Origin: Acidimicrobiaceae bacterium
Lineage (GTDB): Bacteria; Actinomycetota; Acidimicrobiia; Acidimicrobiales; RAAP-2
Reading direction: 5' to 3'
Length of the DNA: 64,000 nt
NCBI GenBank assembly: GCA_003142095.1
Contig: PLON01000044.1
Coordinates: 34,369 to 98,368, forward strand
Position 1 is the first letter of the stretch. The number at the start of each line of letters is the position of its first letter. The notes under the pieces are model-generated. The model searched no databases. It saw nothing but the letters and a program-made list of their open reading frames with translations, and was not told where the DNA came from. The position numbers and the translations under genes are program-made. Shown here piece after piece: positions 23,483 through 33,111 of the stretch.

Positions 23483-24046
23483 ATGGCCGCAATCTCTACT
23501 TCCGACTTACGAAACGGCATCACGCTCAAGATCGACGAAGGGCTCTTCACGGTCCTCGAGTTCCAGCACGTTAAGCCCGGTAAAGGGGGCGCTTTCGTTC
23601 GCACCAAGTTGCGCAACGCCCGTACGGGCGCCGTCATCGAGCGCACGTACCGCGGCGACGAACGCCTCGAACAGGCCATCATCGACAAGCGCGACACGCA
23701 GTATCTGTACCGCGACGGTGACGACTACATCTTTATGGACCAGAGCAACTTTGATCAGGTTCCCGTTTCGTCGAAGAGCCTTGGCGAAGCGACAAACTTT
23801 CTCGTCGAGACGGGAAAAGCCATGCTTATTTCCTACGACGACGAAATTATCGGTGTCGAACTTCCCGCTTCGGTGGAGCTGACGATCACGGACACCGAGC
23901 CGGGCGTTCAGGGTGATCGAGTCTCCGGGGCGCGCAAGCCCGCGACCCTGCAGACGGGTTATGTCGTTCAGGTCCCGCTCTTCGTCGGTCCGGGCGAGGC
24001 CATCAAGGTCGACACGCGCACCGGTGAGTACATGACCCGAGCGTAG
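23483..24046 (+). CDS. efp: Elongation factor P
   Basis: Rescues ribosomes stalled at consecutive prolines. The 187-residue product has the three-domain layout: domain I with FQHVKPGKGGAFVRTKLRN, where the lysine in PGKGG sits at the tip reaching the peptidyl-transferase centre, then YLYRDGDDYIFMDQSNF, and the C-terminal OB signature VQVPLFVGPGEAIKVDTRTGEYMTR. The modification enzymes (epmA/epmB or others) are not in the window. nusB begins immediately after the stop. Confidence 0.97.
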   Translation: MAAISTSDLRNGITLKIDEGLFTVLEFQHVKPGKGGAFVRTKLRNARTGAVIERTYRGDERLEQAIIDKRDTQYLYRDGDDYIFMDQSNFDQVPVSSKSLGEATNFLVETGKAMLISYDDEIIGVELPASVELTITDTEPGVQGDRVSGARKPATLQTGYVVQVPLFVGPGEAIKVDTRTGEYMTRA

Positions 24047-24047
24047 G

Positions 24048-24449
24048 GTGAGCGAACTCGGTCAAAATCGACACCGCGCCCGCGAACGAGCGTTGGAGAT
24101 CCTCTATGAATCGACGATCAAGGAACGACCCGTCGCCATCATTTTGACGGAGTTAAGCGCGCGTCCCGACGCCTACGTTGTGGCGTTGCTAACTTCTGCG
24201 GCCGATCACCAGAATCAAGCCAATGAACTCATGAGCGAGTTGTCGATCGACTGGCCGCTTGAGCGGATCGCCCTCGTCGATCGACTGATCATGACCCTCG
24301 CGATTGGCGAGATGCTGATGGAAAATGCGCCACCCGTCGCTGTTATTCTGGACGAAGCCGTGGAGATGGCGAAGATCTTTTCCACCGATGGATCCTCATC
24401 TTTCGTGAACGGGGTGCTGTCGTCGGTCGCCCAGAGGCTTGTCGAGTAG
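24048..24449 (+). CDS. nusB: Transcription antitermination factor NusB
   Basis: All-helical RNA-binding factor that, with NusE (S10), binds boxA in rRNA operons. The 133-residue protein begins with the Arg-rich RHRARERALEILYES. It contains LPLERIALVDRLI-like WPLERIALVDRLIMTLAIGE and ends with AVEMAKIFSTDGSSSFVNGVL, all characteristic. GTG start one base after efp. It is the last gene before the oxidase locus, and in many actinobacteria pyrR follows it directly. Confidence 0.95.
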   Translation: MSELGQNRHRARERALEILYESTIKERPVAIILTELSARPDAYVVALLTSAADHQNQANELMSELSIDWPLERIALVDRLIMTLAIGEMLMENAPPVAVILDEAVEMAKIFSTDGSSSFVNGVLSSVAQRLVE

Positions 24450-24464
24450 ATATTGGAGCGTTGA

Positions 24465-26201
24465 ATGCCGGGAATGGGTCAGAACAACGTTTCGTTGACC
24501 AATCCGATCGTTGTCTCAGTATTTCGGCACCATCTCTACGTCACGAGCGTCTACTGGATCATCGGTATCGCACTCGTGGCACTGCTCGGCGCGACGTTGC
24601 TGCGTCGACTGAACACCTTCAATCTTTCGAAGGCCGGACTCAGCGAACCTCGTAGTCGAACGATCCTCAGAATCGGTTTCGGGATTATCTGGGTCTTTGA
24701 CGGCATCTTGCAGTTTCAACCCGGAATGCCGCTTGGCCTAGCAAACGCCGTCGTGCGTCCGACGCTGTCGGGTGCGCCCAGTTGGCTTCACCCGCTCATG
24801 TTGCACGCGATCAATCTGTGGAACGCGCATCCCATCGATCTCGCGACGGGCACGGCGTGGATACAGGTCGGTATCGGACTCGCGCTCATTACCTCAAACG
24901 CCACCATCGGCCGCGGCGCCGCCGTCGTGGCCGCGGGCTGGGCGGGGCTCATTTGGTTAATCGGCAACGGTGCGGGCGGGGCCTTCGCGTCGGGCTCGTC
25001 GGTGCTTTTTGGGTGGCCCGGCGCCACGTTCTTTTATTTTGTGGCGGCGGTATGGATCGTGTTGCCTCCGGGGTACTTCGCCGAGCACTTTTCGCGCTGG
25101 ACGCTGCGCGTGGTCGCACTAGTCCTTCTTATTGCCGCGGTGTTGCAGTGTCTCGCGTCAGCGGGCTTTTGGCACGGCGGCAACAGCAACGCCCTGACGG
25201 CAATGTCGCGATCGATGACGGAGACGGCCCAACCGCACGCACTCGCGTGGATTGTTCGTCACGTCGGCGATCTCGCCGGGACGTTGGGTGGGGGATTTAA
25301 CGTCATCATCATTTTGTGGCTTGTCGCGTGTGCGGTCGGTCTCTGGTACGCCAGCACTCACCAGATCAACTGGCCCGTCGTGACCCTGGTCGTCGGCGCG
25401 GTGATTGTGTGGGTCGTGGGCGAGGACATCGCGATCTACGGCGGAGTGGGCACGGACATCAACTCAATGATCCCGCTCGCTCTATTGGTGTGGTGCTCCC
25501 GACCGGCGTGGCGATCCGCCGCCCCGCTGGTACGTCGTCTTCCCGAGGAGTTCCGATCGAGCTCGGGGGCGGTCGTGGCGGCCTTCGCGACGGGCATGAT
25601 CCTCTTCTCCGTGGTATCGATGGGCATTGCGTCGGTGTCGGCCGCCGAGCTGACGCTCTTCGTTGCGCAAAATGGTCCGGCGGCGTCGGTGAACACCAAG
25701 GCACCGGTGTTCACCCTGACCGATCAGCACGACGAGCCCTACCGTCTTGAGGAACACAAGGGGCGCTACATCCTGATGACCTTCCTCGACCCGGTCTGTT
25801 ACACCGACTGCCCGTTGCTCGCGGCTCAGCTTCGCCAAGTTCGCGCACAATTGCCCGCGTCGACGCCTCTCGACATCGTGGTGGTTGCGGCCAACCCGCT
25901 GCATCAAACCCTCGCTAACGTGCGACACTTCATCAAGATCCACGATCTATCGTCGGTTCCGAACTTCTATTTCGTCACGGGTTCGACGGCCAAGACTCGA
26001 AAAGTATGGAACTCGTACGGCATAAGTGTTACCAATGAGCCGGGGGACATCATGAGCATCCACTCCGACTACATGTTCATTATCAAGCCGTCGGGACGGC
26101 TACGTTGGATCATTCCCGACGACCCGCTGTCGAGCTCCGCGGGCCAGCAGTCGAGTGAGAGTGAACTGATGAGCCTCTTGCGCCAAGCCGGACTTCACTA
26201 G
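24465..26201 (+). CDS. Membrane protein fused to SCO1/SenC copper-chaperone domain
   Basis: A 578-residue fusion. Residues about 25-390 form roughly nine or ten hydrophobic helices, beginning with a segment (LRIGFGIIWVFDGILQFQPG) reminiscent of DoxX-like membrane proteins. Residues about 405-578 form an exported thioredoxin-fold SCO domain with the copper-binding pair C445-YTD-C449 and the conserved His533 in IHSDYMFII. SCO proteins deliver copper to the CuA site of oxidase subunit II, and coxB lies in the same locus. ctaG, another copper-insertion factor, begins 3 bases downstream. Free SCO proteins normally have one anchor helix; the large membrane part is unusual and its role unknown. Confidence 0.88.
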   Translation: MPGMGQNNVSLTNPIVVSVFRHHLYVTSVYWIIGIALVALLGATLLRRLNTFNLSKAGLSEPRSRTILRIGFGIIWVFDGILQFQPGMPLGLANAVVRPTLSGAPSWLHPLMLHAINLWNAHPIDLATGTAWIQVGIGLALITSNATIGRGAAVVAAGWAGLIWLIGNGAGGAFASGSSVLFGWPGATFFYFVAAVWIVLPPGYFAEHFSRWTLRVVALVLLIAAVLQCLASAGFWHGGNSNALTAMSRSMTETAQPHALAWIVRHVGDLAGTLGGGFNVIIILWLVACAVGLWYASTHQINWPVVTLVVGAVIVWVVGEDIAIYGGVGTDINSMIPLALLVWCSRPAWRSAAPLVRRLPEEFRSSSGAVVAAFATGMILFSVVSMGIASVSAAELTLFVAQNGPAASVNTKAPVFTLTDQHDEPYRLEEHKGRYILMTFLDPVCYTDCPLLAAQLRQVRAQLPASTPLDIVVVAANPLHQTLANVRHFIKIHDLSSVPNFYFVTGSTAKTRKVWNSYGISVTNEPGDIMSIHSDYMFIIKPSGRLRWIIPDDPLSSSAGQQSSESELMSLLRQAGLH

Positions 26202-26203
26202 CG

Positions 26204-27055
26204 ATGTCACCTCTGGGCGCCGTCGCCGTCCTCGGGGCTGTGGCGTCGATCGTGGCGTACTCTCGGCGTAAGACAACGCCGCTGCGCGTGAAGTGCCAGT
26301 TCGTCATCGCTTTACTCAGTTGGGCGCTTCTTTGGTACGCCACCGCGTCGCCGTTTGCCGCCAAGGGAATGGTCAGTCTCCCCGATCACATGATCGCGCA
26401 CATTCTGGTCATGTTTCTGGTGCCCATTGGCCTCGTCGGGTCGGGGGCGCTGCGCTCGATGTGGTGGATTCTGCGACCGGACTCGCGACGTCGCCTGCTT
26501 TCGTGGTGGTATCTTCGACGGACCTGGCACGCGCCGAAATGGCTGTTCCATCCCGTCACCGCGACCATTGTCCTCAACGCAGTCATGCTCGCTTCGCATA
26601 TGCCACGGATCTTCGACTACGTGATGGCGCGTACCTGGACGATGCAGTGGGTTGTCGAACCGGCCTTTCTTTTGAGCGGACTGTTCTTTTTTCACTTCAT
26701 CGTGTCGTCGCCGCCGCGCGTCAATCGGGTACGAGTTCGCTATCAACTCTTCGCGCTCCTCGTGACCTTGTTCGAGATGTTGATGCTTGCGATGTCGATG
26801 GCGATCTTTACGAAGACGTCGTGGTACAGCGTGATGGTGATGCACTCGGGCATGACTGCGATGCCCGGCATGGCTCGCTCGGCGAGCGTGGCCTTCAGCC
26901 AGCAACGTCTCGCCGCAGGGATCTTGTGGATCTGTGGTGACGGCTGGGCCGTACCGTGCTTAATTCTTGTTCTCCATCGGATCGTGAAAAAAGAAGGTTC
27001 GCTCTTCGCCGCGCTCGAGCGTCAGACCTCGCGGTTGTCGGGCGTGACCGGCTGA
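26204..27055 (+). CDS. ctaG: Cytochrome c oxidase assembly factor CtaG (caa3 type)
   Basis: Integral membrane protein thought to assist CuB insertion into oxidase subunit I. The 283 residues contain about seven hydrophobic helices and the family features LPDHMIAHILVMFLVPIGLVG, the Met/His-rich VMVMHSGMTAMPGMARS and a final helix ILWICGDGWAVPCLILVLHR. It belongs to the caa3_CtaG family, not the periplasmic Cox11 type. It starts 3 bases after the SCO-fusion gene, so both copper-handling genes are coexpressed. The 3' end overlaps the convergent small membrane gene by 34 bases. Confidence 0.9.
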   Translation: MSPLGAVAVLGAVASIVAYSRRKTTPLRVKCQFVIALLSWALLWYATASPFAAKGMVSLPDHMIAHILVMFLVPIGLVGSGALRSMWWILRPDSRRRLLSWWYLRRTWHAPKWLFHPVTATIVLNAVMLASHMPRIFDYVMARTWTMQWVVEPAFLLSGLFFFHFIVSSPPRVNRVRVRYQLFALLVTLFEMLMLAMSMAIFTKTSWYSVMVMHSGMTAMPGMARSASVAFSQQRLAAGILWICGDGWAVPCLILVLHRIVKKEGSLFAALERQTSRLSGVTG

Positions 27056-27366
27056 TCGGACTGGTGGATCGAGGCCAGGTAGGCGTTCCAGGCCTCGAGG
27101 CGCGCGTCGTCTTCGACGCCCTTGGAACGCTTGACTTTTACTTGTCCGCGCTCTTCACGCAGCATCTTCTTCCACATATAAATGGCGTAGATGCCGAGGG
27201 CGGGCCACTCCACCACGTAGGCCCACGAGAGAATGTTGCCCGAGAGCGCGCGGTACATTTCGAAGGCGAAGGCCGGTATGCACATGAGCTCGGCGAGAAA
27301 GAGCCCTAGATGGATCCTGAAGATGTTCTTAGGTTCACCCGCCACTTCAGGTGACTTTAGCGCCAA
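27022..27366 (-). CDS. Small membrane protein of unknown function
   Basis: A 114-residue protein with two hydrophobic segments (HLGLFLAELMCIPAFAFEMY and ILSWAYVVEWPALGIYAIYMW) and a charged cytoplasmic-looking tail (KMLREERGQVKVKRSKG). The tail overlaps ctaG by 34 bases on the opposite strand. The frame opens at a TTG; a GTG seven codons in is an alternative start, and neither has a clear SD. Position within the oxidase locus suggests a relation to it, but this is not shown by the sequence. Confidence 0.65.
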   Translation of the reverse strand: MALKSPEVAGEPKNIFRIHLGLFLAELMCIPAFAFEMYRALSGNILSWAYVVEWPALGIYAIYMWKKMLREERGQVKVKRSKGVEDDARLEAWNAYLASIHQSDQPVTPDNREV

Positions 27367-27454
27367 ATTATTGCGCTCTTACAGTACGGTATGTACGGCG
27401 AACGGGGAAGTGAGAACAATCACAACCCGATGAGAAAGCGTCAAAGGAGATTGA

Positions 27455-28135
27455 ATGATTCGCTCCAAGTCCCTTGGGGTAGCCCTGGCCTCGGTGCTGC
27501 TCGGCGGTGGCGCACTGGCGCTCGCGGGCTTTGCGTTGGCCAGCGCCACGCCCCATCAAACACCGTTGAAGTGCGTAGAAAGCACCACCAAAGCTCACAC
27601 CTGCAACGTCACGCTGAGTACTTTTCCCGACTCACTTGAGGGCGTTCACGGCGCCAACGGCGGGCCACACCCCGACTGGGTGACCTACTCGAATGACAAC
27701 GTCGACGTGCCGGCGCACACCACCATTGACGTCACCATTGACCAGTACGACACGGGTGGCGCGGCAGACAACCCCTTCTTTGACAACGTGATCGGTACGA
27801 ACGGCGGCTTTGACACCGTGAACGGCGTCGTGACGCGACACGTCGGTGCGAACGACATCGGGCATACCTTTACGTTGCGCGGAATTCCCGGAAACGGCAA
27901 GACCCTTTTCCTCTCCGTACCTCTGCCCTACAACCACGGCACGACGGATCCCGTGAAATTAGACACTGGTGCGTACCCCAAGCCCGTCGTCGTGAAGTTC
28001 TCATTCACGACCGGCGGCCCGACCGTGTACGAGTTCAACTGCGAATTTCCCTGCGGTGGTGGCCGTGAAGGCGCCGGCTTCGGCTACGCCATGAGCAGTT
28101 ATGGCTACATGTCCGGCACGTTCACGGTTCAATAA
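27455..28135 (+). CDS. Secreted cupredoxin-like protein with CxxxC loop
   Basis: A 226-residue exported protein: Arg/Lys N-terminus, a long hydrophobic segment and a probable cleavage site near ALASA (about residue 31). The mature part is beta-rich. It ends in FNCEFPCGGGREGAGFG and YGYMSGTFTV, a loop resembling the copper loop of cupredoxins. Candidate ligands are His137 (GHTFTL), Cys196, Cys200 and Met213 or Met219. The second His of a standard CuA site (CxxxCxxxH) is absent. Two further cysteines (40 and 50) may form a disulfide. It has an SD (GGAG) and directly precedes coxB in the same operon, so it may be an extra copper subunit or electron carrier (inference). Confidence 0.75.
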   Translation: MIRSKSLGVALASVLLGGGALALAGFALASATPHQTPLKCVESTTKAHTCNVTLSTFPDSLEGVHGANGGPHPDWVTYSNDNVDVPAHTTIDVTIDQYDTGGAADNPFFDNVIGTNGGFDTVNGVVTRHVGANDIGHTFTLRGIPGNGKTLFLSVPLPYNHGTTDPVKLDTGAYPKPVVVKFSFTTGGPTVYEFNCEFPCGGGREGAGFGYAMSSYGYMSGTFTVQ

Positions 28136-28144
28136 GGAGACTCT

Positions 28145-28876
28145 GTGGCTACTTCTAGTACTAAGCGATCGCTGACAAGGTTCTATTGGGCCTGGGGAAT
28201 ATTGACGGTCGTCGGCGTGGTGCTGTCAATATGGCTGCCCCATCGTTACGTGCCGCGCATGATGAGCAACGACGGGAATCTGTCGCTAACGACCATGATT
28301 CTCTTCAGTGTCTTGGCGGCACCGGTCGCTTCCGGTGTCTACGCGGCAGCGCTTCACATCATGCACGCCGACCGCTACCGCGGAGAGGGCGTGCCGCCGG
28401 CGGCCGAGCCGATTCGTGAGAACACCAAGTTGCTCGTGACGTGGCTCACGGTCTCTGCGGTGTTGACCGTCTTCGTGCTGGTCTGGGGCCTCGGCGCCTT
28501 GGCGGCAGAAAACTCAACTTCGGGAAATCCGCTGGTCGTGGACGTGACCGGTCAGCAGTGGGTGTGGACGTTTGCCTACCCCGGAACCCACGTGGTCTCA
28601 AACGAACTGTACGTACCTGACAATCGTGAAGTCGAGTTTCGCGTCACGTCACTTGACGTCACCCATGGCTTTTGGGTCGTGAACTTTGGTGTCCAGGTCG
28701 ACGCGAACCCTGGAGTCATTACGACCATCCATACGACCCCCGACAAACTTGGCACGATCGAGGTTCGATGTGAGCAGTTCTGTGGACTTAACCACGCGTT
28801 CATGGACGCGATTGGCCACGTCGTCACCCCGTCACAATTCTCTGCTTGGCTCTCGAGCCAGCCGCAGGGAGCGTAG
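28145..28876 (+). CDS. coxB: Cytochrome c oxidase subunit II
   Basis: Carries the CuA electron-entry site of the heme-copper oxidase. The 243-residue protein has three hydrophobic segments (about 13-32, 48-74 and 98-121), one more than canonical subunit II, before the exported cupredoxin domain. All CuA ligands are visible: His174 in VTHGFW, then Cys209, Cys213, His217 and Met220 in the C-terminal loop CEQFCGLNHAFM. The GTG start follows AAGGAG at 6 bases. No cytochrome c domain is fused to the C-terminus. It lies 8 bases upstream of coxA. Confidence 0.94.
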   Translation: MATSSTKRSLTRFYWAWGILTVVGVVLSIWLPHRYVPRMMSNDGNLSLTTMILFSVLAAPVASGVYAAALHIMHADRYRGEGVPPAAEPIRENTKLLVTWLTVSAVLTVFVLVWGLGALAAENSTSGNPLVVDVTGQQWVWTFAYPGTHVVSNELYVPDNREVEFRVTSLDVTHGFWVVNFGVQVDANPGVITTIHTTPDKLGTIEVRCEQFCGLNHAFMDAIGHVVTPSQFSAWLSSQPQGA

Positions 28877-28884
28877 GAGGCATC

Positions 28885-30750
28885 ATGACCACAACTCTTG
28901 AACACACGGCAACTTCCGCCGAACCCCGCGGCGGGGGACTGGCGCGTCACCAAAACTTCGGCACCGCCATCGTCGCCGGCGTGATCCTCGCCTGGGTCGG
29001 CTGGTTTGTCGCGCGCCACCTCTTCTGGAGCGGAAGCGACAACTGGTCCGACCAGGTAGCGACCATGACGGCCACAGGCTGGATGATTGGCTTTTGGATT
29101 GGGATCGGCGCTTTCAACGCGCCGTTTCGTTGGTTAGTCGGTAACGACAACTCTCGCGACGAAGATCTCTACTACGCGGGGTACAAGCAGGGACGTGCAC
29201 GGTACTGGAAGTACACGACGGACCACAAGGTCGTCGGTGTTCAGTACATCATCCTGACGATGTCTTTGTTGGCCGTCGGCGGCATCCTCGCGATGGCGAT
29301 TCGCACCGAACTGATTGTGCCCGGTACCCACTTCGTGAACCAGCAGGTCTATAACAGCTTCATCGCCATTCACGGAATGGTCATGATCTTGGCCCTCATC
29401 GTGGCGGTCGCGGGGCCGTGGGGCAACTTCGTCATGCCGATCATGGTCGGCGCTCGAGACATGGCGTTTCCACGACTGAACGCACTTAGCCTCTGGACCC
29501 TCGTTAGTGCGGCCTTTCTGCTCGTTACGGTCCTGGCGGTCGGTGGTCTGCCCGTTGGTTGGGTAGTTCTTGGCACCATTTCTGACCAAGCCGGTGTCGG
29601 GATGGACTTCTTCGCCATGACCATTGTCGTCTTTACAGTGTCGACAACTGTGGCCAGTATCAACCTGATCACCACGGTCATTACCATGCGAACCAAGGGG
29701 ATGACCCTTGACCGGCTTCCCATATTCGTGTGGGGCACCATGATCACAGCGGTGCTTGCCTTGTACGCTTTTCCGTTCTTCTTCGTGGCAGAACTGAACC
29801 AAATCCTTGACCGCACAGTGTCGACGAGCTTCTACGTCGCCTCCGGCGGTGGTACGAGTTGGCTCCAAGCGAACCTCTTCTGGCTCATGGGACACCCCGA
29901 GGTCTACGTCATCTTGATCCCGGCCGTGGCGGCGCTCTTTGAGATCTCTTCGGTCATGGCGCGAAAGCCACTCTTTAGTTATAAAACCGCCATAGGAGCG
30001 ATGGTCGCCCTCTCGGGACTGTCGGCTCTCGTGTGGGCGCACCACATGTTCACGTCGGGCTGGGCGCCCACCCTGGGAGGACCGTTCATGGTGACGACGG
30101 AAGTCATCTCCATTCCGACCGGCATCTTCTTCCTGGTTCTCGTGGGTACGCTCTGGCGCGGCAACGTCTGGATGAGGTTACCGACGCTGTGGATGTTCGG
30201 TTTCATCTTTAACTTCATCGTCGGCGGAGTTACCGGGATATACCTCTCGGACATTCCCCTCGACGAGCAACTGCACGGAACCATGTTCGTCACGGCCCAC
30301 TTCCACTACATCTTCGTGGGATCAGTGCTGTTCGGCGCGATTGCGGCGTTGGCGTTCTGGTTCCCGAAGGTGACGGGGAGATTCCTTGACGAGAGACTGG
30401 GTCGCTACTCATTCTGGCTCGTGTTCATTGGCGTACAATTAACTTTCGGCGCCATGTTCCTCTCAGGACTGAAGGGCATGCCACGACGTGACGCGTCCTA
30501 CAGCCTGGCCTTTGAGCACACGAACTTCATCTCGACGATCGGTGCGTACATCATCATGGCGGGCATGCTCATTCTGCTCGGCGCGATCATCACCTCGTGG
30601 CGTAAGGGTGAACCGTCCGGGCCGAACCCGTGGCACGCCAACTCGCTTGAGTGGCAGGTACCTACACCCGTGCCGCTCGAGAACTTCCTCGAAGATCCAG
30701 TCATTACGCAAGACCCCTACCACTACGGAGAGGAACTGGTGCGTCCATGA
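28885..30750 (+). CDS. coxA: Cytochrome c oxidase subunit I
   Basis: Catalytic subunit with heme a, heme a3 and CuB; reduces O2 and pumps protons. The 621-residue protein has AIHGMVMIL (low-spin heme His), GNFVMPIMVGARDMAFPRLN, the CuB ligands and A1-type Glu in MGHPEVYVILIP, HHMF, and TAHFHYIFVG (heme His pair). Two extra hydrophobic segments at about 26-46 and 62-84 precede canonical helix I, making the N-terminus longer than usual. The start at 28885 follows AGGAGG by 4 bases; an upstream in-frame start would lie in coxB. Confidence 0.96.
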   Translation: MTTTLEHTATSAEPRGGGLARHQNFGTAIVAGVILAWVGWFVARHLFWSGSDNWSDQVATMTATGWMIGFWIGIGAFNAPFRWLVGNDNSRDEDLYYAGYKQGRARYWKYTTDHKVVGVQYIILTMSLLAVGGILAMAIRTELIVPGTHFVNQQVYNSFIAIHGMVMILALIVAVAGPWGNFVMPIMVGARDMAFPRLNALSLWTLVSAAFLLVTVLAVGGLPVGWVVLGTISDQAGVGMDFFAMTIVVFTVSTTVASINLITTVITMRTKGMTLDRLPIFVWGTMITAVLALYAFPFFFVAELNQILDRTVSTSFYVASGGGTSWLQANLFWLMGHPEVYVILIPAVAALFEISSVMARKPLFSYKTAIGAMVALSGLSALVWAHHMFTSGWAPTLGGPFMVTTEVISIPTGIFFLVLVGTLWRGNVWMRLPTLWMFGFIFNFIVGGVTGIYLSDIPLDEQLHGTMFVTAHFHYIFVGSVLFGAIAALAFWFPKVTGRFLDERLGRYSFWLVFIGVQLTFGAMFLSGLKGMPRRDASYSLAFEHTNFISTIGAYIIMAGMLILLGAIITSWRKGEPSGPNPWHANSLEWQVPTPVPLENFLEDPVITQDPYHYGEELVRP

Positions 30751-31493
30751 GCATCGCCGATATCGAACCTCAGAGCGAGATGCACGGTGGCACAGAGGGC
30801 CACCACGAAGATCCCGTAAAGGTCGACGGACGTCAGCGTGTAGGTATTTGGTTGTTCATCGGCGCCGACGTCGTCACGGTGGCGGCGATACTCTTCACGT
30901 ATCTCTATCTGCGCGGTGTTGACACTGCCGGTCACTGGATGGAGATGGAGGGGTACAAGGGGAACCTGCATACGTACGCGTTCTGGGAGAACCAGTATCT
31001 GAACGGTACGCTCGCGAACCCCAAGGCGATTTACGTCGGGACGCTCTCGGCGGGCCTGCAGTGGCTGACGGCGGGACTCACGGTCGTTAGCGCCGCGGTG
31101 CTGTGGTTCGGAGAGAAGGGCCTGCGCGCAACGAAGAACGCGAAGGCGTTCTCCCCGGTCGCGGTAGTAGCGATGCTGCTTACCTTGGCCGGCGTGGTCG
31201 TGTCCGCGATCCAGTTGCGCGACATTCCTCAGATCTTCGTCGCGGTGAACGACTCCATCACGATGTCCTACACCACGTACGACTCGGCGATGATGGCCAT
31301 CGTCGGTTCGACGCTGGGCCACCTGGTGCTCCTCGCCTTCCTCGGACTCGGTCTCGCAATTCGATCCGCCCGCGGTGCGATCAGCGGAGAGAAGTGGTAT
31401 CAAGTTCGACTGGTTCGCTATTTCTGGGTCTGGGTCGCTATTTCGAGCGTTGTTACAACGCTGATTACGACTAGCATTAACACGGTTCACTAA
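30747..31493 (+). CDS. coxC: Cytochrome c oxidase subunit III
   Basis: Core membrane subunit that supports proton uptake and oxidase stability. The 248-residue protein has five or so hydrophobic helices and the family segment QRVGIWLFIGADVVTVAAILF, where the usual conserved Glu of FIASE is replaced by Asp. Later segments SAGLQWLTAGLTVVSA and GHLVLLAFLGLGLA fit helices IV-VI. The ATG overlaps the coxA stop (ATGA). No separate subunit IV gene follows; the next gene is pyrR behind a regulated leader. Confidence 0.9.
   Translation: MSIADIEPQSEMHGGTEGHHEDPVKVDGRQRVGIWLFIGADVVTVAAILFTYLYLRGVDTAGHWMEMEGYKGNLHTYAFWENQYLNGTLANPKAIYVGTLSAGLQWLTAGLTVVSAAVLWFGEKGLRATKNAKAFSPVAVVAMLLTLAGVVVSAIQLRDIPQIFVAVNDSITMSYTTYDSAMMAIVGSTLGHLVLLAFLGLGLAIRSARGAISGEKWYQVRLVRYFWVWVAISSVVTTLITTSINTVH
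31450..31477 (+). promoter_or_regulatory. Probable promoter of the pyr operon inside coxC
   Basis: TTGTTA at 31450-31455 and TAGCAT at 31472-31477 are separated by 16 bases. Transcription from about 31484 would give an 80-85 base leader that includes the PyrR-binding hairpin. Confidence 0.5.
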
Positions 31494-31501
31494 GACAACA
31501 G

Positions 31502-31563
31502 CTCCTCGGGCGTGCCCGGGGGACTGTCGTGAAACGAGTCCTGCGAGGCTCGTACGACAGGAG
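31502..31563 (+). promoter_or_regulatory. PyrR-binding leader hairpin controlling the pyr operon
   Basis: AGTCCTGCGAGGCT at 31537-31550 matches the known PyrR RNA-binding consensus. It sits in a hairpin: ACGAG (31534-31538) pairs with CTCGT (31549-31553), and CTGTCGT (31524-31530) pairs with ACGACAG (31554-31560). The lower stem ends on the SD (AGGAG, 31559-31563). CTCCTC at 31502-31507 could pair with that SD in an alternative fold. No U-tract follows, so translational rather than transcriptional control is likely, as reported for mycobacterial PyrR. Confidence 0.8.
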
Positions 31564-31567
31564 AGAA

Positions 31568-32131
31568 ATGACGAACGACGACGAACGCCTGGCGCCCTCG
31601 CGCGGTGCGGGGTTTGTGGCGAAGAGCCAACTCCTTTCTGAGGATGACGTTGCGCGCGCACTAACGCGGATGGCCCACGAGATCGTCGAACGCAACCGCG
31701 ATCTCAAAATGGTGTCGCTGATTGGTCTTCAGACCGGCGGCGAACCCATCGCCCAGCGACTGGTGAGTCTTCTCGGTGACGTCGCCGGAGAAGCTCCGCC
31801 GCTCGGGCTGCTCGACGTGTCGTTCTACCGCGATGACCTGTCATTGAATCCTGTGCCGCGCTCGTCGCACACCGTTATCGATCACGACCTGACGGACCGC
31901 ACGGTGGTGCTGGTCGACGACGTTCTCTTTACTGGTCGCACCATTCGCGCGGCTCTCAACGCGCTCACCGACTGGGGCCGACCCCGCTCGGTTCAACTGG
32001 CGGTCATGGTCGACCGCGGGCATCGCGAACTACCGATCCGACCGGACTACGTCGGAAAGAATCTCCCGACGTCGCTGGACGAAGACATCAAGGCCACCCT
32101 CGAGGGCGTCTGGATCGGGACGAGTTCCTGA
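31568..32131 (+). CDS. pyrR: Pyrimidine operon regulator PyrR
   Basis: UMP-responsive RNA-binding regulator of the pyr operon, with weak uracil phosphoribosyltransferase activity in many species. The 187-residue protein has the PRTase fold: VSLIGLQTGGEPIAQRL near 45-61, DVSFYRDDLS, the PRPP-binding motif VVLVDDVLFTGRTIRAALNAL, and VQLAVMVDRGHRELPI. The start at 31568 follows the AGGAG of the leader at 4 bases; an upstream in-frame start would lie in the hairpin. Its stop overlaps pyrB by one base (TGATG). Confidence 0.96.
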   Translation: MTNDDERLAPSRGAGFVAKSQLLSEDDVARALTRMAHEIVERNRDLKMVSLIGLQTGGEPIAQRLVSLLGDVAGEAPPLGLLDVSFYRDDLSLNPVPRSSHTVIDHDLTDRTVVLVDDVLFTGRTIRAALNALTDWGRPRSVQLAVMVDRGHRELPIRPDYVGKNLPTSLDEDIKATLEGVWIGTSS

Positions 32132-33111
32132 TGGAAACACTTCGTGGCCAGAGTCTGCTCTCGCTCGAGGATCTTTCGCGCGACGCAGTCGTGGAGATCC
32201 TCGACGTGGCTGAAACCTTCGTCGAAGTCAACCAGCGCACCATTAAGAAGGTGCCGGCCCTGAAAGGCCGCGTCGTGGCGTCACTCTTTTTCGAGGAGTC
32301 GACGCGTACCCGGTTGAGTTTTGAAACGGCGGCGAAACGACTGAGCGCAGACGTTCTCTCGCTCGCCATTGCTTCGAGCAGCGTCAAAAAGGGTGAGTCG
32401 CTACGCGACACCATCTCCACGATCGACGCTCTCGGGATCGACGCAGTCGTTATGCGTCACCAGTCGAGTGGCGCGGCCCTGCAAGTCAGTCGCTACGTGC
32501 CGCAAGTGCGCGTCATCAACGGCGGCGACGGACAGCACCAACACCCGACCCAGGGACTGCTCGACGCCTTTACGATTCGACAAATATTGGCTGAACGCAA
32601 CGACACCTCCGGACCGGAGTCGGGAGCGGAGCTCTTCGCCGGACTACGCATTCTCATCGTGGGCGACCTTCGCCACAGCCGCGTCGCGCGCAGCGACGTC
32701 AGCGCCTACGTCACGTTGGGCGCCGAGGTCCGCGTCGCCGCGCCCGGCACGTTGCTGCCGGACGACGTTGCGTCGTGGCCCGTGACGGTGGCGACGAACT
32801 TCGACGAGGCCCTGGCCTGGGCCGACGTCGTTGGTCTGTTGCGTCTGCAGGTCGAGCGGGGATCCGGTTCCTTCGTGCCGACGCTGCGTGAATTTACAAC
32901 AACGTACGGTCTCACGATCGAACGCGCACGGGCTCTACGGCCAGAAACGATCATTATGCACCCCGGGCCCATCAACCGTGGGGTCGAGATCGATTCCAGC
33001 GTGGCGGACTTACCCTCGGCGGTTATTGATCGCCAGGTCACGAACGGCGTGCCGGTACGCATGGCGGTGTTGTACTTGAGTGTGGCCGGCGCGAAAGAGG
33101 AGAGACCGTGA
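32131..33111 (+). CDS. pyrB: Aspartate carbamoyltransferase catalytic chain
   Basis: Condenses carbamoyl phosphate with aspartate in UMP synthesis. The 326-residue protein has the carbamoyl-phosphate motif FFEESTRTRLSFE at about 54-66, HQHPTQGLLDAFTI, and LRLQVERGSGSF and MHPGPINRGVEI in the aspartate domain. There is no regulatory pyrI gene nearby, so the enzyme is probably the simple class found with PyrR control. It overlaps pyrR by one base and pyrC by four. Confidence 0.97.
   Translation: METLRGQSLLSLEDLSRDAVVEILDVAETFVEVNQRTIKKVPALKGRVVASLFFEESTRTRLSFETAAKRLSADVLSLAIASSSVKKGESLRDTISTIDALGIDAVVMRHQSSGAALQVSRYVPQVRVINGGDGQHQHPTQGLLDAFTIRQILAERNDTSGPESGAELFAGLRILIVGDLRHSRVARSDVSAYVTLGAEVRVAAPGTLLPDDVASWPVTVATNFDEALAWADVVGLLRLQVERGSGSFVPTLREFTTTYGLTIERARALRPETIIMHPGPINRGVEIDSSVADLPSAVIDRQVTNGVPVRMAVLYLSVAGAKEERP

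Follow-up and report, generated by a model that had tools for sequence, protein, structure and literature searches.

What does an additional cupredoxin-like protein do at the head of an actinobacterial terminal oxidase operon? The window, as we call the whole 64,000-nucleotide stretch analysed here, carries the gene run CUPX-coxB-coxA-coxC, in which the protein in question, CUPX, comes first; the genes for an SCO protein and CtaG form a separate upstream block past an opposite-strand gene (Table 1). A preliminary description of this DNA had pointed to a secreted protein encoded 5' of coxB, with His137, Cys196, Cys200 and a single late methionine as copper-type residues and lacking the second histidine of CuA. 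The sequence confirms the gene order and these residues, except that there are two invariant late methionines, M213 and M219. The CUPX gene starts with ATG behind a purine-rich RBS-type sequence (aaaggag), and its stop codon is separated by 9 bp from the GTG start of coxB; no match to a sigma-70 promoter or a terminator was found near it. Since the CuA motif of the neighbouring CoxB is complete, CUPX is an addition to the oxidase rather than a replacement. The C-x3-C-x3-H-x2-M pattern is kept in all CoxB proteins examined, including the standard CoxB of the same genome. In the window CoxB, the motif (28769-28804) has the form CEQFC, with Gln where many relatives carry Glu.

Table 1 Features of the oxidase locus, with positions in the window
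Feature	Positions	Strand	Description
SCO1/SenC domain protein	24465..26201	+	domain fused C-terminally to a long membrane domain; probably a copper-assembly factor
Caa3_CtaG assembly factor	26204..27055	+	domain match
Small membrane protein, ~114 aa	27022..27366	-	between ctaG and CUPX; kept in most loci
CUPX	27455..28135	+	226 aa; anchor (aa 2-30) and cupredoxin domain; putative copper ligands H137, C196, C200, M213, M219
His137 codon	27863..27865	+	aligned with the core CuA ligand His via the A5 paralogue profile
C196-x3-C200 (CEFPC)	28040..28054	+	C196 codon at 28040, C200 codon at 28052; aligned to both CuA Cys
M213-x5-M219 pair	28091..28111	+	M213 codon at 28091, M219 codon at 28109; loop without His
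coxB	28145..28876	+	oxidase subunit II; intact CuA motif CEQFCGLNHAFM
coxA	28885..30750	+	oxidase subunit I; GHPEVY motif and His ligands present
coxC	30747..31493	+	oxidase subunit III; identified by its position and by conserved synteny

Two of the upstream genes deserve mention in their own right. The small opposite-strand protein has membrane-like segments and no Pfam match, has relatives in other loci (for example L079 and L128) and may be another undescribed oxidase partner. The N-terminal membrane domain of the SCO protein, about 400 residues long, likewise matches no Pfam model; a relative of it that stands alone (37% over residues 61-365) is encoded at L163:3256-4806, beside a cupredoxin cluster of the FeS/NrfD type described below.

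Homologues of CUPX were collected from 61 related genomes and from a scan of GTDB species genomes, where the best 80 of 207 confirmed stretches yielded 79 loci. The resulting alignment of 106 sequences, in which some rows are near-duplicates and a few genomes were reached twice, comprises 87 sequences of type A, the type of the window, and 19 of type B, which are about 30-40% identical to the window CUPX. All 106 share H137, C196, C200, M213 and M219, so that the conservation of the histidine and the two cysteines, on which the preliminary description had staked its proposal, holds without exception. Further B-type sequences, including that of genome G139 (taken as Acidimicrobium ferrooxidans DSM 10331), have the same five residues. 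Judged from these alignments, the conservation of the set is far beyond chance, and from the residue set we infer that CUPX probably binds copper. H72, part of an HPxW motif, was weighed as a possible sixth ligand but rejected, as it is kept in 94 of the 106 sequences and lost in L159, L160 and L162; C40 and C50 are conserved in close relatives only.

The residue set differs from those of familiar copper sites. The last histidine of CUPX is H161, so the second His of CuA is truly missing, and the only methionines besides the initiator are the two conserved ones of the C-terminal loop. From the CuA pattern C-x3-C-x3-H-x2-M, an upstream His, the C-x3-C and a late Met are present and the conserved second His is absent. 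The type 1 blue copper set of two His, one Cys and one Met is not found, since CUPX has one invariant His, nor is the AcoP pattern C-x6-H-x4-M, which calls for a His after C196. Searches with family models gave a similar picture: CUPX matched no Pfam or NCBIfam model, PF00116 (COX2, CuA domain) included, and 52 family members gave no convincing Pfam match. The curated cut-off of PF13473 (Cupredoxin_1) was reached neither by CUPX nor by 51 relatives. CUPX did not match PCuAC (PF04314) either, nor does it fit the PCuAC motif H(M)x10Mx21HxM, M213 and M219 being its only Met apart from the initiator. Against the PDB, phmmer returned one spurious siglec match and nothing else for CUPX, and the CUPX profile returned only sub-significant matches to auracyanin and blue-copper proteins. 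No plasmid homologues of CUPX were found.

The predicted structure places CUPX securely among the cupredoxins. An AlphaFold2 model built with a 52-sequence alignment (mean pLDDT 86, pTM 0.81) consists of a helix at residues 2-30 and a beta sandwich, with residues 201-208 of the ligand loop below pLDDT 50. A separate model of a B-type CUPX (pLDDT 80) matches the cupredoxin domains of nitrite reductase and rusticyanin (21-22% identity). Both models show the Greek-key beta sandwich and match many cupredoxins at Z 8-10, in agreement with the cupredoxin fold that had been set as a test beforehand. The subfamily is less certain by fold. The top Foldseek matches, with low TM-scores, are cupredoxin domains of nitrite reductase, N2O reductase and multicopper oxidases and the CuA domain of ba3 oxidase, while a second structural aligner placed CupA (4f2e, Z 10.3), nitrosocyanin and the metal-binding domain of CopA (4f2f, Z 10.2) first. 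The CuA domain of N2O reductase followed with Z 9.1 and 20% identity. CupA is a structural match only (12% identity), with no counterpart in the PDB sequence search, and AcoP is absent among the structural matches listed. A segment of 19 residues with a mean Kyte-Doolittle value above 1.6 lies within the first 45 residues in 69 of 71 homologues. Together with the model helix, this suggests that CUPX is more likely membrane-anchored than secreted, with a cleaved signal as the lesser alternative.

CUPX is coupled to one class of heme-copper oxidase. In 74 of the 79 loci, coxB follows on the same strand, commonly at a spacing of 4-12 bp, and the five exceptions are contig ends, truncated hits and one decayed copy (L120). 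The family is present in 14 of 396 actinobacterial genomes, and A-type CoxA, defined by 54% identity or more, occurs in 8 of the 396, which are exactly the eight with A-type CUPX. Within one genus, a fixed chromosomal place (EFP-NusB ... PyrR-PyrB) is occupied by an A-type oxidase in some species and by a B-type one in others, and the CUPX type equals the oxidase type in all 28 typed loci (10 A/A, 18 B/B, no mixed pair). The correlation of tree distances between CUPX and CoxB is 0.94, as high as that between CoxB and CoxA. Because the counts are not independent of phylogeny or operon inheritance, we attach no p-value to them, and the correlation is to be read with the same caution. The association with oxidase genes elsewhere, on which the original proposal depended, is near-perfect.

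A comparison of L042:5233-17782 with the window (23483-33108) shows a whole-oxidase replacement, in which the same EFP-NusB and PyrR-PyrB flanks enclose two coxBA sets that differ widely, with about 40% identity between their CoxA proteins. In genome G010, an A-type locus has decayed (L038:6498-7927, G010:C1): CUPX contains stops, coxB and coxA are gone, and parts of ctaG and coxC remain. A B-type oxidase operon survives elsewhere in that genome.

More distant relatives of CUPX are clustered in other Acidimicrobiales. Two groups of them, A4 and A5, align with CUPX in hhalign (99.9% and 99.4%, respectively) and keep the H ... C-x3-C ... M-x5-M arrangement. The paralogues of locus L048 adjoin a 4Fe-4S protein and an NrfD membrane protein, both confirmed by Pfam; similar FeS/NrfD-type clusters in L163 and L050 were judged from ORF lists. 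No oxidase or other copper enzyme is in view of these paralogues. The three regions (L048:6317-10158, L163:3256-10220 and L050:7733-13269) each hold several C-x3-C...M-x5-M cupredoxins by the membrane proteins, often with response-regulator and kinase genes nearby, and possibly encode an unrecognized quinone-linked redox complex.

The respiratory setting was surveyed in the same genomes. The window genome has two COX1 genes, that of the window oxidase and that of a standard aa3 oxidase on contig C9, and a qcrCAB-like cluster on contig C7. The standard aa3 operon has no adjacent CUPX, as the preliminary description had expected of such operons. In eight small CUPX genomes, including G000, that of Acidimicrobium ferrooxidans and IMCC19121, the PF13442 matches are limited to one diheme QcrC-like protein each, and a mobile cytochrome c was thus not found by this search.

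Together, these results suggest that CUPX is a membrane-anchored extracytoplasmic cupredoxin that works with one actinobacterial heme-copper oxidase class, either as an additional subunit or as a partner dedicated to electron transfer, a reading to which we assign a probability of about one half. It is favoured by the position of CUPX in the structural gene run and its strict match to the oxidase type, by the failure to detect a mobile cytochrome c and by the precedent of AcoP (PMC4059628, PMC5982212). In the proposed model, His137, C196-x3-C200 and Met213/Met219 would bind either a single copper or a CuA-like copper pair in which Met takes the role of the second His. Electrons would enter CUPX from a membrane donor and pass from CUPX to CuA in CoxB; the donor could be QcrC, the diheme protein of the bc complex, or one tied to a particular substrate, for example in Fe(II) oxidation in acidophiles. 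A purely iron-oxidation role was dropped on account of the many hosts, such as Nocardioides, Intrasporangium and Planktophila, that to our knowledge are not iron oxidizers. Of the three roles first suggested for the protein, namely electron donor, CuA assembly intermediate and new copper site, the data thus favour an electron-transfer partner, with copper delivery still a rival.

That rival, a delivery role akin to that of CupA or PmoD, holds that CUPX is a membrane-anchored Cu(I) metallochaperone with CupA-like chemistry, which would load CuA (or CuB) of the co-encoded oxidase. We regard it as a serious though less likely alternative. Two Cys and two Met with a His would make a good Cu(I) site, CupA and the CopA domain are among the best structural matches, and CupA, too, is a cupredoxin tethered to the membrane that combines a bis-thiolate with a Met-rich site (PMC7558416). 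The genes for SCO and CtaG are neighbours of CUPX. The case for electron transfer is weakened by the standard oxidase of the window genome, which does without a CUPX beside it. PCuAC is absent from every CUPX genome tested, and neither PCuAC nor Sco was detected in Acidimicrobium ferrooxidans despite its two COX1 genes, which leaves a vacancy for a chaperone. However, the absence of PCuAC is not specific, since G044 and G279, which have no CUPX oxidase, also lack it, and an SCO protein and CtaG are already present in most of the genomes (Sco was found in most CUPX genomes tested). CUPX also sits outside the assembly block, and its paralogues accompany membrane redox proteins with no copper enzyme to be loaded in view, a setting that fits electron transfer better than oxidase assembly.

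A further proposal, which overlaps with electron transfer as a sub-case of it, is that the site in CUPX is genuinely dinuclear and of the CuA type, one His being replaced by Met, and that CUPX acts as a second CuA-like relay in the oxidase. The A5 paralogues, which exceed the Pfam Cupredoxin_1 cut-off (31.1 and 28.1 versus 27 bits), form the sole bridge between CUPX and CuA domains at the sequence level. Their profile aligns with the CuA domain of CoxB (probability 95.6, E 1.3e-8), with the Cys pair and His in register and the last Met aligned, and finds the CuA domain of N2O reductase in the PDB (E 8e-6). The structural matches to the CuA domains of N2O reductase and ba3 oxidase point the same way, and PmoD illustrates that CuA-type centres can form from Cys/Met/His sets other than the canonical one (PMC6189053). 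On the other hand, the direct comparison of the CUPX and CoxB profiles is weak (probability 13%), the loop past C200 is variable in length and poorly modelled, and a mononuclear site is equally possible, with the crystal structure of His143Met rusticyanin (2cal) among the listed matches. We consider a dinuclear centre in CUPX possible but less likely than not. Finally, it is very improbable that the copper site is degenerate and CUPX merely a structural accessory subunit: the canonical second His is missing and the remaining sequence is mostly variable, but a dead site would not be expected to keep five metal-type residues invariant at about 30-80% overall identity, and to keep them again in paralogues.

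If electron transfer by CUPX is taken further, one may speculate, with considerable reserve, that His, Cys-x3-Cys and Met-x5-Met make up a natural copper centre of a new sort, perhaps a version of CuA in which Met stands in for His. All oxidases of this actinobacterial class would then depend on it as an additional electron relay, as would quinone-linked FeS/NrfD complexes in the case of the paralogues, and it would take the place of mobile cytochrome c in organisms in which the QcrC-like diheme protein is the only c-type heme protein detected. Although terminal oxidases are among the best-known enzymes, the family libraries searched do not include this conserved component and its probable copper site. 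As an electron relay, CUPX would explain how a second oxidase is supplied in a group poor in cytochrome c, to which freshwater actinobacteria and an iron-oxidizing acidophile belong; as a copper donor, it would account for CuA assembly in the absence of PCuAC and, in some cases, of Sco. Either way, the ligand set is directly testable by bioinorganic chemists, with Intrasporangium chromatireducens and Acidimicrobium ferrooxidans as cultured hosts.

The preliminary description regarded the protein as a candidate for an undescribed component. Neither the family libraries nor the open literature searched yielded the CUPX family, its ligand pattern or its link to a class of actinobacterial oxidases, but oxidase-linked cupredoxins as a kind are already known from AcoP (PMC4059628) and sulfocyanin (PMC10654088), and a passage in PMC8239418 cites Degli Esposti 2020 for membrane-bound cupredoxins beside oxidases. 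Sulfocyanin and rusticyanin are cupredoxins that feed oxidases, and rusticyanin is a good match to the B-type model; they have a mononuclear His2-Cys-Met blue site, whereas CUPX has one His fewer and one Cys more. CupA and the CopA domain of Streptococcus pneumoniae share with CUPX the cupredoxin fold and two Cys plus Mets, and CupA is also membrane-anchored and gives the best structural Z, but these are copper-resistance proteins with a chaperone role, no oxidase link and about 12-13% identity. PmoD of methane oxidizers (PMC6189053) is an operon-associated, membrane-anchored cupredoxin with a non-canonical Cys/Met/His set as well. Its ligands, however, come from a different region of the fold, with one Cys per monomer in a homodimer, its anchor is C-terminal and its partner is pMMO. 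The CuA domain of oxidase subunit II and N2O reductase (PF00116) has the cupredoxin fold, the core His, the C-x3-C and the late Met in common with CUPX, to which it is linked through the A5 profile; CuA needs C-x3-C-x3-H-x2-M, whereas CUPX has C-x3-C, a variable loop and M-x5-M without His. AcoP of Acidithiobacillus ferrooxidans uses H85, C159, H166 and M171 (PMC4059628), and by these published ligands its one Cys and two His differ from the two Cys of CUPX and its loop without a C-terminal His; the searches described above revealed no sequence link between CUPX and AcoP. AcoP is recovered together with its oxidase on purification, and electrons pass between AcoP and cytochrome c4 (PMC5982212, PMC4059628); like CUPX, this proposed electron shuttle is a membrane-anchored single-domain cupredoxin whose gene lies inside an oxidase cluster.
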